From: Olivibacter sp. XZL3
GTDB lineage: Bacteria > Bacteroidota > Bacteroidia > Sphingobacteriales > Sphingobacteriaceae
Length of the DNA: 64,000 nt
Direction: 5' to 3'
Assembly (NCBI RefSeq): GCF_004368405.1
Contig: NZ_SBJH01000059.1
Location: forward strand, 62,001-126,000
This document shows positions 56,418 to 64,000 of the stretch, one piece after another. Both the position numbers and the translations under genes were made by a program. The stretch's first letter is position 1; each line of letters starts with the position of its first letter. The notes beneath the pieces are model-generated. The model was not told the DNA's origin, made no database searches, and saw only the letters and a list, made by a program, of their open reading frames with translations.

Positions 56418-59400
56418 ATGAACGATAAAATCGTAAGGGCTGTGCTATGGCCGAAGCACAAGCTGTCAGAAATCAGCTGTCAGCTATCGGCTGGATACCA
56501 GATCAAAAAGAGAAATAAAGATAAAAGAAAGCGACGAACGACTTCCGGTAGAGACGAACGACCTACTAAAGGGCAGGCCTTGCGCCCCCTTAAACCTTAT
56601 GCCTTTTACCTTATAACCTTAAAGATTTTGTTCTGTGTTTGTTTGGCACACGCCCGGCAGTCCTCCTCCCCGGAGGCTGCCCACGGCGTGGCTTTGCAAA
56701 GTTTTTATCTACTTAATGGACAAGTTGTATCTGCCGAAACAAATGAACCACTGGATGGAGCTACTGTAAAAATATGGGAACAGAATGTCAAGGTCTTGAC
56801 GGATGCGGATGGTATGTTCCGGTTGACAGTGCCCGATACAGGTGGGATTTTGCTCGTCAGTTATGTAGGCTATAAGATTGCCGAAGTTCCCTTCGGAGGG
56901 AGCCAATCGACCCCGTTAAAGGTTCGATTGGAAAGCAATGGCACCCAGCTGGAAGAAGTGCAGGTGAGTACAGGATACCAAGTTTTACCCAAAGAAAGGG
57001 CAACGGGGAGTTTTGTGCACATGGATAGTGCTTTACTAAACAGAAGGATTTCAACGAATATTCTTGATCGTTTAGACGGGATGTCCACAGGGATATACTT
57101 TAATCGGGCCAATACCGGAAATATAGCGACCTCTCCACTATTGAAAAATACGGGGATCAACATTCGCGGTGAAAGTACCTTCAACAGCTCTACTGACCCA
57201 CTGATCGTTGTGGATAATTTTCCTTATGAAGGCGAGATTAGTAATATCAATCCTAATGATGTCGAGTCTATTACTATTCTTAAAGATGCTGCAGCCGCTT
57301 CCATATGGGGCGCGAGAGCTGGTAATGGGGTGATCGTGATTACTACAAAGAGCGGAAAACAGAATGAACCGCTGAAGCTGAATGTTTCGGCTAATGTGAG
57401 TATTACGGAAAAGCCTAATCTTTTCTATGATCCTTTTTATGTGGGGGCTAGCGATTATATCGAGTTAGAACGGTATCTCTTTAATCAAGGATATTTTGAT
57501 ACCGACCTCAATGATAGGCGCTCATGGCCGTCTATAACACCCGTAGTAGATTGGCTGGCTAAACAAAGGAACGGTGAGTTGACCGAAACTGAAGTTAACG
57601 ATAGGTTGGCTCAGCTTGCTAGCAACGATGTGCGCCAGGATTATGCGAACTTTATATACCAACCGGCTATCAATCAGCAATATTATATTGGCGTGCGCGG
57701 AGGGAACAACAAACTGGCTTATAATTTTTCTGTTGGGCATGACCGTAATCGTGAAAGCCTTGTAGCTAACCAGTTTCAGCGTACGTCCATAAATAGCAAT
57801 CAAACCTACTCTTTTTCAACAAAATTTTCAGTATCCCTAGGGTTAAACTATAGCCAAAATAAAACGACACAGAACAATGATTTTGCATATGGATCCTATA
57901 GTTCCGTAGGAGGTAAATACAATCGTATTTATCCTTACGCACGATTGAAGAATGCAGACGGTTCCAATGCTGATATTCTACGAGGGATCAATGGTATTTA
58001 TCTCAACGAATGGGAAACCGAAGGAGGCATGGATTGGCGTTATCGGCCCTTAGATGAAATTCATTTAACTGACAATTTTACCAAAGTTAACGACCTGCTG
58101 TTGAGGGTTTCGGCTGATTATCAAGTTGTGCCCGGATTCACCGCACGCCTGTTTTACCAGAACGAAAGACAGACGATCAATAGCTATGATTATAGCAACC
58201 CACTATCGTATAATGCGCGTAATATGGTCAACAGATTCGTAGTCAGAGGGGAAGATGCCAACGATTGGCAGTATAATTTTCCACAAGGCGGCCTGCTGGA
58301 TCTGGGCAATTATGAATGGCTTTCCCAGAATGCGAGAGGACAATTGGACTATAATCAGGCGTTTGGCCTTCATGAGCTGAATGGTATCCTTGGAACTGAA
58401 CTGCGAGAATTGAAAACCGAAGGCTATAATAATAGCTTTTATGGCTATGACGATCAGTTTGGTACCGGAGTGGGTTTTCTCGACTATACTACATGGTACC
58501 CAGCAAATCCATCAGGTTCTGCACTGATTCCTGCACCGCCAAGTGGCATAGACGGCCAATTGAACCGATATGTTTCTTATTATACCAATCTTGGTTATTC
58601 TTATGCAGGTAGATATCTGTTAAATCTGAGTGGCCGGAAGGATGGAGCAAATCTCTTCGGTACAAAGCCCAATCAAAGGGTTACCCCGCTTTGGTCTGCC
58701 GGGTTGGGTTGGCTATTGAGCAAAGAACATTTTTATCCTTTGGCATGGTTGCCCTATTTAAAACTTCGGGCAACCTATGGCGTTAATGGCAACGTATACA
58801 ATTATGGTTCGGCTTATCTCACTGGGTCTTATTCCACAGACACACAAACCGGCGCAAAGGTCATTGTGGGCGCCAAAGCTCCAAATCCTGAACTGGCTTG
58901 GGAAAAAGTAAGGAATACCAATCTTGGGGTTGACTTTGCATCTAAAGCAAATAGGATTTCCGGAACGTTGGAATTTTACTGGAAAAAAGGACGGGATTTG
59001 ATCCAACCCACCAACCTTGCTCCGCAAACAGGATTTACCACTTTTATGGCCAATACAGCCAGTAGCAATACGCAAGGTTTGGAACTAAACCTCAATGCTA
59101 AGATTTTGGTAAAGGCTTTCAAGTGGAATAGTACCTTATTATTGAGTACCGTGAACGATAAGGTGATACGGTACGATGCTCCGCTGACTTCTACAAGTAT
59201 CCAATCTGCCGGAGGGGTGGTGGGCAGGCCTATGTATGGCCTCTTTAGTTACCGTTGGGCTGGTCTCGACCCGCAAAGCGGTGATCCTTTAGGATTTCTT
59301 CAGGGGACGGTCAGCAACGATTATAACGCTATACGGAATAACTATAGTCCTGACAGCCTGGTGTATAACGGAACGATTCGGCCTACTGCTTTCGGCGCAT

Positions 59401-59870
59401 TTCGGCAGGACGTCAGTTACCGTAATTTTAGCCTTTCTTTCAATATTACTTATCAGTTGGGTTATGTTTTCCGTAGGTCTTCCGTGAATCTCAATTATGC
59501 AAACTTATTGGCTACAGGACTACATAGCGATTACCTGCAACGGTGGCAGCAACCGGGAGACGAGCAGCATACTCAGGTGCCTTCTATCAGTTATGCCAGC
59601 AATACGAATCGTAGTATATTCTACCAGTATTCGGAGGCGTTGGTGGAAGATGGTGACCATATTCGTCTGCAGGACGTACGTTTGTCCTATCATTTCAATG
59701 ATCGGTTATGGGGACGAAGTGGGATTAAAAATTTAGAGATTTTTTGCTACGCTAAAAACCTGGGCATTTTGTGGCGCAAAAATAAACTGGGACTTGATCC
59801 TTTAGCTATTTATTATGGCAATTATCCTGCCCCAACTTATTGGTCATTTGGCGCTTCTTTTCACCTTTAA
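56418..59870 (+). CDS. SusC/RagA TonB-dependent transporter (locus 3)
   Basis: The 1150-residue protein has an unusual basic, low-complexity N-terminal extension (1-60), then a hydrophobic segment 'YAFYLITLKILFCVCLAHA' at about 61-79 that would be the signal anchor or peptide, a carboxypeptidase-D regulatory-like domain ('LNGQVVSAETNEPLDGATVK', about 98-175), a plug ('VVDNFPYEGEISNINPNDVE', 'AAAASIWGARAGNGVIVITTK') and a barrel ending 'YWSFGASFHL'. No in-frame ATG lies between codon 1 and the signal. It is followed by SusD and a thioredoxin-like protein. No STN domain is seen. Confidence 0.93.
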   Translation: MNDKIVRAVLWPKHKLSEISCQLSAGYQIKKRNKDKRKRRTTSGRDERPTKGQALRPLKPYAFYLITLKILFCVCLAHARQSSSPEAAHGVALQSFYLLNGQVVSAETNEPLDGATVKIWEQNVKVLTDADGMFRLTVPDTGGILLVSYVGYKIAEVPFGGSQSTPLKVRLESNGTQLEEVQVSTGYQVLPKERATGSFVHMDSALLNRRISTNILDRLDGMSTGIYFNRANTGNIATSPLLKNTGINIRGESTFNSSTDPLIVVDNFPYEGEISNINPNDVESITILKDAAAASIWGARAGNGVIVITTKSGKQNEPLKLNVSANVSITEKPNLFYDPFYVGASDYIELERYLFNQGYFDTDLNDRRSWPSITPVVDWLAKQRNGELTETEVNDRLAQLASNDVRQDYANFIYQPAINQQYYIGVRGGNNKLAYNFSVGHDRNRESLVANQFQRTSINSNQTYSFSTKFSVSLGLNYSQNKTTQNNDFAYGSYSSVGGKYNRIYPYARLKNADGSNADILRGINGIYLNEWETEGGMDWRYRPLDEIHLTDNFTKVNDLLLRVSADYQVVPGFTARLFYQNERQTINSYDYSNPLSYNARNMVNRFVVRGEDANDWQYNFPQGGLLDLGNYEWLSQNARGQLDYNQAFGLHELNGILGTELRELKTEGYNNSFYGYDDQFGTGVGFLDYTTWYPANPSGSALIPAPPSGIDGQLNRYVSYYTNLGYSYAGRYLLNLSGRKDGANLFGTKPNQRVTPLWSAGLGWLLSKEHFYPLAWLPYLKLRATYGVNGNVYNYGSAYLTGSYSTDTQTGAKVIVGAKAPNPELAWEKVRNTNLGVDFASKANRISGTLEFYWKKGRDLIQPTNLAPQTGFTTFMANTASSNTQGLELNLNAKILVKAFKWNSTLLLSTVNDKVIRYDAPLTSTSIQSAGGVVGRPMYGLFSYRWAGLDPQSGDPLGFLQGTVSNDYNAIRNNYSPDSLVYNGTIRPTAFGAFRQDVSYRNFSLSFNITYQLGYVFRRSSVNLNYANLLATGLHSDYLQRWQQPGDEQHTQVPSISYASNTNRSIFYQYSEALVEDGDHIRLQDVRLSYHFNDRLWGRSGIKNLEIFCYAKNLGILWRKNKLGLDPLAIYYGNYPAPTYWSFGASFHL

Positions 59871-59887
59871 CATAAAATTTAATCAAT

Positions 59888-61270
59888 ATGAAACAGATAA
59901 TAAGCTATATAATGCTGATTACTTTGCTACTAAGCTTTGGTTCCTGTAGCAAAAAGGATGAATGGCTTGATGTCAAAAGTAGCAAGGGTTTTGTAGTGCC
60001 TGAAACGCTTAATGATTTTCAAGCCTTGTTGGATAATTCCAATGTGATGAATGGCAATTTTTCCACCCCGGGTCTAGTTGGCTCGGACAATTTATATATA
60101 CCGGATGAAATATTGCCAACCGCTACGGAGACCGAACGGAATCTATACCTCTGGGCAGACGAAATATGGGCCGATGGAACAAGTGCGGAATGGAATCTCA
60201 TGTATGCGATCGTTGAGTATGCCAATTTGGTTTTAGAAGGTCTGGATGATTTAGATGAGGCACAGTCAGAATATGCGAATGTAAAGGGGCAAGCTTATTT
60301 TTTCAGGGCTTATGCTTTTTACAACATTACGCAGGCTTTTTGTAAGGCTTATGATGCTTCAACTGCCTCCCTTGATCAGGGCATTCCATTGCGGTTAACG
60401 ACTGATGTAAATATCATCGTGTCCCGTGCCTCTTTATCTGATACATTTCAGCAAATGTTGGCAGATGCTCAAGAGGCAGCGGCCCTCTTGCCTGATGAAC
60501 AAAAGTATATACAGAGGCCATCTAAAGCAGCCGCTTTGGCATTGCTTGCAAAAATATACCTAAATATGGCTGATTACGGACAGGCAGAATATTATGCAGA
60601 TCAAGCGTTATCCATCAACGATAATCTGCTCGATTTTAACAGTGACCTCGTTTCAGAGAATATTACCTACAGATTTCCGGCAAAAGGAAACGGTAATCCG
60701 GAAGTATCCTTTTACGCCGATGCTATTGCTTATCGCTCCGTTCGTCCATTGACCTCAAGTTACGGCATTATAGACTCTTCACTTTATTCAAGTTACGAGG
60801 ATAATGATTTGCGTAAACGCTTCTTCTATAGAATCGCCGAAGGTTATCCAAAGTTTATTGGAGGTTATTCGGGAACCCTAGCAAATTTCTGCGGCATAGC
60901 AAATAATGAAGTGTTATTAATTAGGGCGGAAGCTAGGGCTAGACTGGGGGCATTGGAACTGGCTTCTGCAGATCTGGATTATCTATTGGAGCATCGGTTT
61001 GCCCACGGTACTTATCGTCCTTTGACTATAAATACTCAACAAGGCTTGTTGGAGGCGATTCTTTTGGAGCGCCGAAAAGAATTGCCATTTACGGGTAATT
61101 TACGATGGGAAGATCTTAAACGGTTGAATCGAGAGACGGCATTTCAAAAAACTTTAACAAGAAGAGTGGGAGATAGGGAGTATACGCTCCCTCCAAATGA
61201 TATCCGCTATGTTATGCCGATACCTATGCAGGAAATAGAACAAAGTGGGATACACCAAAACGAAAGGTAA
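59888..61270 (+). CDS. SusD/RagB family lipoprotein (locus 3)
   Basis: The 460-residue protein has a lipobox 'LLLSFGSCSKKDEW' (Cys20) and a shorter SusD layout ('SKGFVVPETLNDFQALLDNS', 'KGQAYFFRAYAFYNITQAFC', 'NNEVLLIRAEARARLGALEL', 'ERRKELPFTGNLRWEDLKRL'). It follows SusC by 17 bases and precedes the thioredoxin-like gene by 5. The 'DFQALLDN' opening is typical of the subgroup found with TlpA-like partners. Confidence 0.95.
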   Translation: MKQIISYIMLITLLLSFGSCSKKDEWLDVKSSKGFVVPETLNDFQALLDNSNVMNGNFSTPGLVGSDNLYIPDEILPTATETERNLYLWADEIWADGTSAEWNLMYAIVEYANLVLEGLDDLDEAQSEYANVKGQAYFFRAYAFYNITQAFCKAYDASTASLDQGIPLRLTTDVNIIVSRASLSDTFQQMLADAQEAAALLPDEQKYIQRPSKAAALALLAKIYLNMADYGQAEYYADQALSINDNLLDFNSDLVSENITYRFPAKGNGNPEVSFYADAIAYRSVRPLTSSYGIIDSSLYSSYEDNDLRKRFFYRIAEGYPKFIGGYSGTLANFCGIANNEVLLIRAEARARLGALELASADLDYLLEHRFAHGTYRPLTINTQQGLLEAILLERRKELPFTGNLRWEDLKRLNRETAFQKTLTRRVGDREYTLPPNDIRYVMPIPMQEIEQSGIHQNER

Positions 61271-61275
61271 TATTA

Positions 61276-62754
61276 ATGAAAAACTTTATAAGATCTTGTA
61301 TAACGTACACTGCGGCAGTTGTCTTGATCAATTTACTGTCTACATTGACTAATATCTCAGTTTTTGCTTCCGAAAGTTCTTACACATTCCGAATAACGGT
61401 GGACCTCCAGGACAGTAAGGAGGGTGATTCGTTAACATTGGTCGTAGCCGATGGGATTTTTGACAATTATAACAGCGGACAACAATTTACCGTTGGGAGA
61501 AATAGCCGAGGGGTTTATCAATTTAATATTACTAATGAGGAGAGTTACGGTTTTTTCTTTTTGTTAAAAACTAGAACATTTAGCTATAAGGGCGGCCCAA
61601 ATAAAATGGCTATGGTGATTGAAAAGCAGTTTTGGGAAAAGGGGGACGATGTTTCTTTGGAGTTGGCGTATCGAGAAACATTTGGAGGAATATATTCCCA
61701 ATGTGCTTTTTCCGGTGAAGGATCAGCGAAATATACTGCACGATATAAGGTTTTTTCAGAGCAATCTGCGACGAACGTTCAAACGGAACTGAAGAACAGA
61801 AGTCTGCTTTCTGATCTTTACGCCTTGACCGATCGGCAGCTTGATCAGTTGGAAATATTGCAGCATTATAGACCGATGACGAGTAGATTAGCGTATGATC
61901 TGATCAAAGCAGATATATTGTTTCAATACAAAAAGACTATGCTGGATCTAGAAGTAAACCATCTAACGGATTTAGGATCACAGATAGCCTCGGTAGATAT
62001 ATTGAGAAAACCTGATTCTTATCTTGACCTTGCTCCCGAAGCATTGAGTTTATCGAAAGCATATCTTGATTTTACTTTGAAGAGATTTTCAGCGTATGTG
62101 AATATAGCTCAAAAGGAGGAAGAATTGTTAGCAGGTGTTTTTAACTTGATTAATACTAATTTTAATGGGTTATTACGTGACAGGCTCTTAGCATACATGG
62201 TGGTTGTTTTGGCGAAAGGGAAAAAACAAGATGTCCTTTATCGACACATGCTCTCCTTCATTGAGGATCCTATGGCGGTATCGGTTTTGAAACGACAGCT
62301 TGCCATCACTTCCAAAAGGCAATTGGCAAATTATTGTTTTGAGCGTATGGAAGGAGGTGACATTTGTTTAGACGAATTTAAAGGGAAAGTGGCGTTGATC
62401 GATTTTTGGTTTGTAGGATGCGGTTATTGTACCAAATTGTACAAACAGGTGCTTAGCACACTTGAAAAGGAATTTGTTGATAGTAGTGAACTGGTTTTTC
62501 TATCAATAAACATTGATAAGGACAGAGAAAAATGGTTAAAAGGCGTAGCGTCGGGAGAATATACTGGTGATAGAGCGATTAACCTCCGTGTAAACGACGT
62601 CGACAAAAGCATATTAGCAGATAATAAAATAACATTTTTCCCTACACTGATATTGATCGATGGGAATCGAAAAGTTTTGGACTTTAACTCTAATGATTTA
62701 CATGATTTGGTAAAACTGCGAAATAAAATAGCATCGTTGGTAGGTAGTAAATAA
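61276..62754 (+). CDS. TlpA-like thioredoxin-family exported protein
   Basis: The 492-residue protein has a signal peptide (about 1-32), a long N-terminal region (about 33-350) of the DUF4369-like/helical type found before TlpA domains in Bacteroidota, and a C-terminal thioredoxin fold with the redox motif 'GCGYC' (Cys382, Cys385; 'VALIDFWFVGCGYCTKLY') and a later cis-proline region ('ITFFPTLILIDG'). It probably reduces or exchanges disulfides in the periplasm or at the surface. It is the last gene of the SusCD operon and ends at a bidirectional terminator. Confidence 0.88.
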   Translation: MKNFIRSCITYTAAVVLINLLSTLTNISVFASESSYTFRITVDLQDSKEGDSLTLVVADGIFDNYNSGQQFTVGRNSRGVYQFNITNEESYGFFFLLKTRTFSYKGGPNKMAMVIEKQFWEKGDDVSLELAYRETFGGIYSQCAFSGEGSAKYTARYKVFSEQSATNVQTELKNRSLLSDLYALTDRQLDQLEILQHYRPMTSRLAYDLIKADILFQYKKTMLDLEVNHLTDLGSQIASVDILRKPDSYLDLAPEALSLSKAYLDFTLKRFSAYVNIAQKEEELLAGVFNLINTNFNGLLRDRLLAYMVVVLAKGKKQDVLYRHMLSFIEDPMAVSVLKRQLAITSKRQLANYCFERMEGGDICLDEFKGKVALIDFWFVGCGYCTKLYKQVLSTLEKEFVDSSELVFLSINIDKDREKWLKGVASGEYTGDRAINLRVNDVDKSILADNKITFFPTLILIDGNRKVLDFNSNDLHDLVKLRNKIASLVGSK

Positions 62755-62779
62755 GAAAAGGGCCCTGAGCCCTTTTCTT
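62753..62779. terminator. Bidirectional intrinsic terminator
   Basis: AAGAAAAGGGC (62753-62763) and GCCCTTTTCTT (62769-62779) form a perfect 11-bp stem with the loop CCTGA, flanked by A- and T-rich runs on both sides. It serves the thioredoxin-like gene on + and the small exported protein gene on -. Confidence 0.9.
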
Positions 62780-62780
62780 A

Positions 62781-63101
62781 TTAAAATGAATCACGCCACG
62801 CATCTATGGTGAGATTCATCTGGTTATCTATTACTTGCTTGTCCACCTCGCTGGGAAGTGTGGCAGAGCCTGTAGTAGTAACCTGGCATGGACGAGAGCC
62901 TGTAAGATTACATTCTTCTCCTTGCTCTGGATTTTGGGAAAGCAAATAGGTGTTAGCGGTTTCGCCGATAACATAATAAGTGGTTGCTCTCTTACTGGCA
63001 TGGAAGAAGGATGTGCCGTTTGCTCCGGCGTAGGCTACACTTCCTGTGATTAACATTCCTAGAATGGCAATCACATTCATCCTTTTTAGTAAGTTTTTCA
63101 T
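62781..63101 (-). CDS. Small exported protein with two cysteines (DUF6520-like)
   Basis: From ATG 63101 the 106-residue protein has a signal peptide ('MNVIAILGMLITGSVAYAG') and a mature region of about 80 residues with only two cysteines (Cys64 and Cys72, 'EECNLTGSRPCQVTT'). Layout and length fit the DUF6520-type small exported proteins that accompany MauE/DoxX-like genes in Bacteroidota. The cysteines could form one disulfide. It lies 138 bases after the MauE-like gene on the same strand. The function is unknown. Confidence 0.6.
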   Translation of the reverse strand: MKNLLKRMNVIAILGMLITGSVAYAGANGTSFFHASKRATTYYVIGETANTYLLSQNPEQGEECNLTGSRPCQVTTTGSATLPSEVDKQVIDNQMNLTIDAWRDSF

Positions 63102-63239
63102 GATACTAAAACCATTGAGTGAAGTGCTGAATTCCTCAGGTACAGTCACATTACCTGCCGCTTGGGTTTCCCGGGATCTAAACCGTTGCGGTTAACCGTT
63201 TTTTATTTCACAGGGGAAATCCGTACCCTGCATTGAGGC

Positions 63240-63707
63240 CTATCCAATAGTCTGTATATGCCGTTTGTATTTCTTAAATTGAATAAGCCGGTTGAACCAT
63301 CTTTTTTCAAGGGCAATGGCGATAAGGGCAAAGACAATGAATACCAGGTTAAAGTTTAATTGATCCCGATAGGTGCCATCCTCAGAAAGAATGCCTCCAC
63401 AGCTACAGGGTATCCTATCAAAGAACTTATTCATCCCTAGGATGATGTATAGGCAAAATCCACTGAGCAAAGCAAAAGAAGCCCATAGGCCAAGCAGCTT
63501 TTTAGGTTTATAAACTAAACACCCGAGAATCAGTAGTTCAATCAATGGTATCAGCCAAGTCAGTATGTCTGCAATCGCATCGGGAAAGACCTGGTTGCGC
63601 ATCTGTCGATGTGCTTCTTCATAGTCCGAAAGTTTGCTAACAATAGCATAGAAAAACATCATCGCTATAAAAGCCGTAAGTGCATTGATTATTTTTTCTC
63701 TTTTCAT
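63240..63707 (-). CDS. MauE/DoxX-like membrane protein
   Basis: The 155-residue protein has about four membrane segments ('ALTAFIAMMFFYAIVSKLSD', 'DILTWLIPLIELLILGCLVY', 'LLGLWASFALLSGFCLYIIL', 'FNLVFIVFALIAIALE') and a conserved 'PCSCGG' (Cys101, Cys103) in the loop after the third, as in the MauE/DoxX group. MauE is needed for disulfide formation in methylamine dehydrogenase. Here it probably handles electrons or thiols for the neighbouring small exported protein. Confidence 0.85.
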   Translation of the reverse strand: MKREKIINALTAFIAMMFFYAIVSKLSDYEEAHRQMRNQVFPDAIADILTWLIPLIELLILGCLVYKPKKLLGLWASFALLSGFCLYIILGMNKFFDRIPCSCGGILSEDGTYRDQLNFNLVFIVFALIAIALEKRWFNRLIQFKKYKRHIQTIG

Positions 63708-63852
63708 TTCACTTCTCCTTTCTTTTTAACCAGCGGCCGGCGATTGATTCACCCGGCAACTTCTACCTTTCCCTTTCCATTTAAAAGTAAAGTTAGTGCA
63801 TGTATCTGCTTGGCAGTTAGCGTTTTTTGGCCATCTATGTTGTTTCTTTTGG

Positions 63853-64000
63853 TCATTTTGCCGGGGGCGTTTTAAGATGGCGCAGACGGTATGAACTTGG
63901 AGAAATACCGTAATGCCGCTTAAAGCGTTGGTGAAAGGAGGTGTTTACGGTATAGCCTAAAAAATGAGCAATTTCTTTGATCGGCATATCGGTATGGACG
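63853..64000 (-). CDS. AraC-family regulator, C-terminal fragment, cut by window end
   Basis: The frame read from base 64000 leftwards to the stop at 63853-63855 encodes 'DMPIKEIAHFLGYTVNTSF' and 'HQRFKRHYGISPSSYR', the second helix-turn-helix and end of an AraC/XylS DNA-binding domain. The N-terminal part lies beyond the window. It is oriented like the MauE-like gene, about 145 bases upstream of it, and may control the cluster. Confidence 0.85.
   Translation of the reverse strand, partial: VHTDMPIKEIAHFLGYTVNTSFHQRFKRHYGISPSSYRLRHLKTPPAK

Follow-up and report, generated by a model that had tools for sequence, protein, structure and literature searches.

SusCD complexes are hallmark importers of the Bacteroidota, and most of them have no known substrate. 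One pair, ButCD of Bacteroides fragilis, has been solved with a protein ligand (8ypt_A, 'Cryo-EM structure of BfUbb-ButCD complex'), and that ligand, BfUbb, is a ubiquitin-like, signal-peptidase-I-processed, secreted toxin of 76 residues from B. fragilis (PMC5705921). In a separate line of work, MauE has been speculated to form disulfides in methylamine dehydrogenase, and candidate clusters for ribosomally synthesized and post-translationally modified peptides (RiPPs) that contain mauE/mauD have been described in Streptomyces with decRiPPter (PMC7794033). Here we describe a locus at the end of a 64,000-nucleotide stretch of Olivibacter sp. XZL3 (contig NZ_SBJH01000059.1, positions 62,001 to 126,000; hereafter the window), in which a SusC/SusD pair and a large TlpA-like thioredoxin lie tail to tail with a small exported two-cysteine protein and a MauE-family membrane protein. 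This linkage, first noticed in a first-pass annotation made from the sequence alone, is confirmed by our analysis as both real and far-reaching: the locus is a gene set that occurs in several copies in many Bacteroidota. Its parts are as follows, with coordinates in the window, strand and profile scores.

56418–59870, + strand: SusC/RagA-family TonB-dependent outer membrane transporter (TIGR04056, 547 bits, cut-off 368; TIGR04057, 55.5 bits, cut-off 46.2); start codon uncertain
56550–56700, + strand: 5′ leader with signal-peptide code, common to four other cassette operons of the genome
59888–61270, + strand: SusD/RagB-family lipoprotein lid (PF14322, 115 bits, and PF07980, both above cut-off)
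61276–62754, + strand: TlpA-like periplasmic thioredoxin of 492 amino acids (PF13905, 37.2 bits, cut-off 27; motif WFVGCGYC)
About 62750–62782, no strand: bidirectional terminator (14-bp stem, −19.3 kcal/mol, z −6.3)
62781–63101, − strand: small exported two-cysteine protein, a divergent DUF6520 relative and putative SusCD ligand (PF20130, 16.0 bits, sub-threshold; cysteine pair conserved)
63240–63707, − strand: MauE-family four-helix membrane protein with PCSCGG (PF07291, 100.4 bits, cut-off 27)
63853–64000, − strand: AraC-family regulator (PF12833, HTH_18, 72.7 bits), extending past the window end (L003:9853–10899)

All the genes named by the first-pass annotation, including the MauE protein with CSCGG and the AraC regulator, are present where it placed them. 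Gaps of 17 bp between SusC and SusD and of 5 bp between SusD and the TlpA-like gene fit its proposal that the three form one operon, and the shared terminator that it described is real: the TlpA-like and small genes lie tail to tail, and the arms of the stem contain both stop codons. The small protein (106 amino acids from its ATG) has a signal peptide, no lipobox and, as claimed, exactly two cysteines (C-NLTGSRP-C). In the TlpA-like protein, the thioredoxin domain is C-terminal and carries CGYC, preceded by approximately 350 residues without a known domain; its solved relatives are thiol:disulfide interchange proteins.

Recurrence of the arrangement

The 5.36-Mb genome encodes seven MauE proteins above the Pfam cut-off. 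One of these, a housekeeping form of 394 amino acids, has no SusCD nearby, and at all six of the others a SusC–SusD pair lies tail to tail with the small cysteine protein and MauE. Each of these six cassettes also contains a TlpA-like thioredoxin, whose gene precedes SusC in some cases and in others separates SusD from the small gene, and a Crp-like or AraC regulator follows in five. The five closest relatives of the window SusD in the genome (38–44% identity) are the SusD proteins of the other cassettes. The next relative (33% identity) belongs to a SusCD locus with two thioredoxin proteins and with neither MauE nor a small gene, and the remaining SusD proteins are far more distant.

To look beyond this genome, we used 80 non-housekeeping MauE genes from 101 genomes of the family, picked by MauE score with their neighbours disregarded. 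Among the 77 loci with enough contig, 72 had convergent SusC and SusD, two had them on the same strand as MauE and three had none. A MauE scan of named genomes, for which alignment A3 worked (the window protein alone found nothing and a six-sequence alignment was too divergent), yielded 35 more independent loci from Pedobacter, Dyadobacter, Echinicola, Belliella, Cecembia, Paraflavitalea, Arachidicoccus, Leeuwenhoekiella, Chryseobacterium and others, and the layout was found at 31 of the 32 with enough contig. It was also present at 14 of 15 further loci with high scores from other families in the class, and was not found at four MauE loci of other classes. Overall, 117 of 124 further MauE loci (Sphingobacteriaceae, Cytophagales, Chitinophagaceae and Flavobacteriaceae) have the layout, and the tail-to-tail gap has a median length of 56 bp; a rough estimate from the numbers of SusC and SusD genes puts the expectation of a convergent SusCD within 3.5 kb by chance in this genome at 2–3%. 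With six of six loci in the genome and 117 of 124 elsewhere, including a set of 80 chosen by MauE score, a chance neighbourhood is ruled out. Neighbourhood analysis, proposed in the first-pass annotation as a check, therefore finds its two halves tail to tail at nearly all MauE loci of the class examined.

A thioredoxin-like protein is the usual accessory of the convergent loci and, in the sets that were counted, lies downstream of SusD or upstream of SusC but never in both places. The first-pass annotation had placed it in the SusCD operon; its 3′ position there holds here but is not the rule, since the TlpA-like gene is upstream of SusC in most loci and is swapped for a protease in others. 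Among Flavobacteriaceae and their relatives, this place is taken by an S9 peptidase (L131, L134) or a met-zincin (L132); an S8 subtilase occurs together with a thioredoxin at L143, and an M16 peptidase follows SusD in Leeuwenhoekiella (L173:10885–13701). Because a reductase and four kinds of protease can all open or dismantle a disulfide-closed polypeptide, the contents of the slot suggest that what is imported is a protein or peptide.

The cassette operons of the genome also have sequence in common at their 5′ ends. The leader is present in five of the six, with the window copy matched at 86–95% DNA identity in C110:1350–1495, C69:12496–12616, C97:294039–294161 and C49:86–159, and elsewhere the whole genome contains just a 70-bp partial copy. 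It encodes ..LKPYxxYLITLKILFCVCLAHARQSS.. and reads in frame into SusC in two operons and into TlpA in the other three, as though different operon bodies had been exchanged beneath a common leader. Past the regulator, four of the six cassettes (L003:11367–14601; L018, L019, L020) are followed by a protein of approximately 340 amino acids that belongs to no known family and is acyltransferase-like by eye, alongside a kinase of the LytS type and a LytTR regulator. Related genomes also contain this LytS/LytTR block. DUF6266 and DUF5675 genes (L003:15075–16288) come after the block, beyond the cassette.

The small protein, MauE and the transporter

Exactly two cysteines were found in the mature part of the small protein at 108 of the 124 loci with a picked small open reading frame (ORF), and at no fewer than 101 of the 124 the two were 6–8 residues apart. 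The latter figure is a lower bound, because automatic picking was wrong in about eight loci and because it failed or gave no convincing result at loci where MauE and the small protein are fused (L053, L076, L080, also L116). Forms with four cysteines are found in Flavobacteriaceae and in a few other cases, while five- and six-cysteine forms are rare. Little else is conserved beyond the signal peptide: mean identity is 18%, compared to 32–35% for MauE, SusD and SusC (34% for SusD and 35% for SusC). The cysteine pair is the most conserved feature of the mature protein. The score of the window protein against PF20130 lies below the cut-off of 25.4 bits, 18 of 20 scanned two-cysteine members (alignment A5) match DUF6520 at E values up to 0.5, mostly weakly, and some Flavobacteriaceae small proteins exceed the cut-off; we therefore describe it as a divergent DUF6520 relative and not as a filed member.

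A structural model of the L172 homologue (from A5) predicts a small beta domain, with blocks of the mature part at a predicted local distance difference test (pLDDT) score of 83–93 and means over five models of 52–78. This model, which is of the homologue and not of the window protein, had no PDB match and no structural match at Z ≥ 2 among the chains compared, and a check for a ubiquitin-like ligand gave no sequence match for the small protein.

MauE and the small protein form one uninterrupted in-frame ORF in four loci (L053, L076, L080, L116), which ties the two together. The C-x-C motif is present in all 86 MauE proteins examined and, from what is known of the family, we infer that MauE oxidises the small protein. 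Neither mau genes other than mauE nor methylamine dehydrogenase subunits were found among the scanned neighbours, and amine dehydrogenase maturation was rejected; PADLOC defence models gave no match for the locus, and an anti-phage defence system was likewise rejected. In mostly flavobacterial loci, and in some of the window's own family, MauE is accompanied by a membrane-anchored protein of approximately 350 amino acids (L132:6495–7544, L143:5749–6831, L061, L087, L118, L119, L068, L094), which is fused to MauE in L131, L133, L134 and L136–L139. This protein has no Pfam match and is beta-propeller-like by eye, and a link to an amine dehydrogenase subunit is offered here as a passing thought.

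The transporter resembles ButCD. Sequence comparison gives the 8YPT/8YPU chains as the closest solved relatives of both the window SusC and the window SusD (SusC versus ButC, E = 5.6e-66), and an AlphaFold2 model of the window SusD (pLDDT 90) has ButD as its best structural match (8ypt_A; Z 42.8, root-mean-square deviation 4.7, 409 residues), with the next match at Z 38.0. ButCD was the nearest solved relative by a wide margin for three of three cassette SusC proteins and for a profile of 30 cassette SusD proteins; for a single non-cassette SusC, used as a comparison, the nearest solved relative was not ButCD. A SusD tree has the ButD clade as the sister group of the main cassette clade. SusD proteins of flavobacterial and certain other cassettes fall in a distinct lineage, indicating that the small–MauE pair joined SusCD at least twice.

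Distances between small proteins were correlated with those between SusC proteins (partial Mantel r = 0.26) and between SusD proteins (r = 0.19), with none of 999 permutations as high in either case, but not appreciably with those between MauE proteins after controlling for SusC (0.036, 87 of 999 permutations as high). The same pattern was found in MauE-length windows of SusC and SusD, in each thioredoxin layout alone and in the window's own family alone. As the small protein follows SusC and SusD and not its operon mate MauE, the pattern is most simply read as mutual recognition of small protein and SusCD, with MauE acting as a generic enzyme. The histories of MauE and SusC are themselves only weakly correlated (0.21), so the unit was not simply inherited whole, and yet the small protein follows SusC. 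The suggestion of the first-pass annotation that the transporter handles the small protein gains support from this co-variation, and from the fact that the nearest solved SusCD binds a secreted protein of 76 residues.

A possible secrete-and-retrieve module and its rivals

The conserved linkage, the orientation, the cysteine pair and the co-variation with SusC and SusD are seen directly. We propose, giving the idea an even chance, that they belong to one functional module for secretion and retrieval, in which the small protein would be exported, closed, released, re-imported by its own SusCD and opened. It would be made as a pre-protein and exported by Sec, after which MauE, if it acts as its family is thought to act, would join the two cysteines into a disulfide loop of 6–8 residues and pass the electrons through its C-x-C motif, predicted to be periplasmic, to the quinone pool. 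The closed protein may then leave the cell past the outer membrane, alone or carrying a bound compound, and the facing SusC/SusD would use TonB energy to bring the closed protein or its cargo back across the outer membrane. The disulfide would then be reopened by the periplasmic TlpA-like protein, while in other lineages the protease in the slot (S9, S8, M16 or met-zincin) would dismantle the protein. More tentatively, and at somewhat less than even odds, the whole could be a class-wide, multi-copy system for fetching cargo, or for sensing or excluding non-kin, with specificity provided by the co-evolving small protein and SusC.

Several observations weigh against a module of this kind. Loci of ButCD orthologues have neither MauE nor the small gene, and there a met-zincin adjoins SusCD. 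MauE and a small protein occur without SusCD at L100 and L189, and at L097 and L108 the SusCD is on the strand of MauE, is not convergent and accompanies a six-cysteine small protein. One small protein of the genome has lost its second cysteine and retains only one (L020, on C49; L020:6234–6566). A FecR/sigma system, which would couple import to expression, is absent from most cassettes. A weak correlation with MauE persisted in the type II subset alone (0.08, 5 of 499 permutations as high), and joint exchange of the small gene and SusCD by recombination could also give rise to the co-variation. The broader interpretation of the first-pass annotation, an exported thiol/disulfide system tied to the transporter, is nevertheless supported, and neither of the results that it had named as refuting, unlinked halves or unconserved cysteines, was found.

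The same likeness to ButCD, which was solved with the BfUbb toxin, could be taken as a sign of antagonism, with a bacteriocin-like small protein entering rivals via a matching SusCD, the adjacent SusCD serving as the receptor variant of the producer and the TlpA-like protein or protease as immunity. Acquisition of BSAP toxin genes has been accompanied by that of receptor orthologues lying next to them (PMC5705921), and the small protein is hypervariable and its cassettes multi-copy. However, toxin systems usually leave many receptor-only strains, whereas receptor and small protein are seldom apart here (six of the seven close SusD relatives in the genome carry the pair), a separate immunity gene is absent and the layout is kept across the whole class, so we regard antagonism as unlikely. 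Co-variation with SusC and SusD would be equally expected if the small protein were a disulfide-stabilised partner of SusCD, retained in the periplasm or at the cell surface, that receives or gates an unrelated nutrient, with MauE and TlpA maintaining its redox state, and a small beta domain is predicted with fair confidence for the homologue. We consider such a subunit or periplasmic carrier similarly improbable, because the small protein is not a lipoprotein, is encoded outside the SusCD operon and varies far more than SusC or SusD, and because a slot that alternates between reductase and protease is more in keeping with a peptide or protein substrate.

A further explanation involves linkage and no interaction: SusCD–TlpA would be an ordinary peptide importer and the MauE–small pair an unrelated disulfide module, the two having spread as one mobile unit. 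SusCD loci with a protease or thioredoxin and without MauE do exist (the ButCD orthologues and C114), and the 5′ leader common to five cassette operons gives a hint that loci have recombined. This account appears very unlikely given that the small–MauE pair joined two or more separate SusD lineages, and that the small protein follows SusC in a unit that, by the weak correlation between MauE and SusC, was not inherited whole.

Comparison with known systems

Openly licensed papers in PubMed Central yielded none on a system of MauE, SusD and TlpA or on DUF6520. The individual parts of the locus come from known families, and BfUbb already provides a precedent for a secreted protein paired with SusCD. 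In the literature searched, however, no locus was found that combines a small protein with a putative disulfide enzyme, a SusCD of its own and a matching reductase or protease. Since a candidate protein substrate is encoded beside its importer in well over a hundred of the places examined, the question of SusCD substrates becomes directly testable here. If secretion and retrieval are confirmed, MauE-type proteins and DUF6520 would have a function outside methylamine metabolism, and SusCD import of self-encoded proteins would be part of normal physiology and not merely the entry route of a toxin.

Of the described systems, BfUbb-ButCD (8YPT/8YPU) has the SusCD of nearest type, which binds a Sec-exported mature protein of approximately 70–80 residues, and in both cases an enzyme adjoins SusCD (a met-zincin in the ButCD orthologues). 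Unlike the small protein, BfUbb has a ubiquitin fold and is not DUF6520-like, and PMC5705921 mentions no disulfide or cysteine of BfUbb; moreover, the known ligand of ButCD is foreign to the receptor locus, and the orthologue loci lack the small–MauE pair. Maturation of methylamine dehydrogenase in Paracoccus (reference cited in PMC7794033) likewise involves MauE and a periplasmic thioredoxin-like partner, MauD, acting on a small exported cysteine protein. The locus differs from that system in having no amine dehydrogenase subunits or other mau genes, in including a transporter and in having one predicted disulfide rather than many. The decRiPPter clusters of Streptomyces also place MauE (and MauD) beside a small precursor peptide (PMC7794033), but they are from Actinobacteria and have no SusCD, and no further modifying enzymes were seen at the loci described here. 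Finally, RagAB and other SusCD complexes share the SusC barrel with its SusD lid (the 'pedal bin') and import peptides; those taken up by RagAB are of outside origin, whereas here the candidate substrate is encoded beside the importer.

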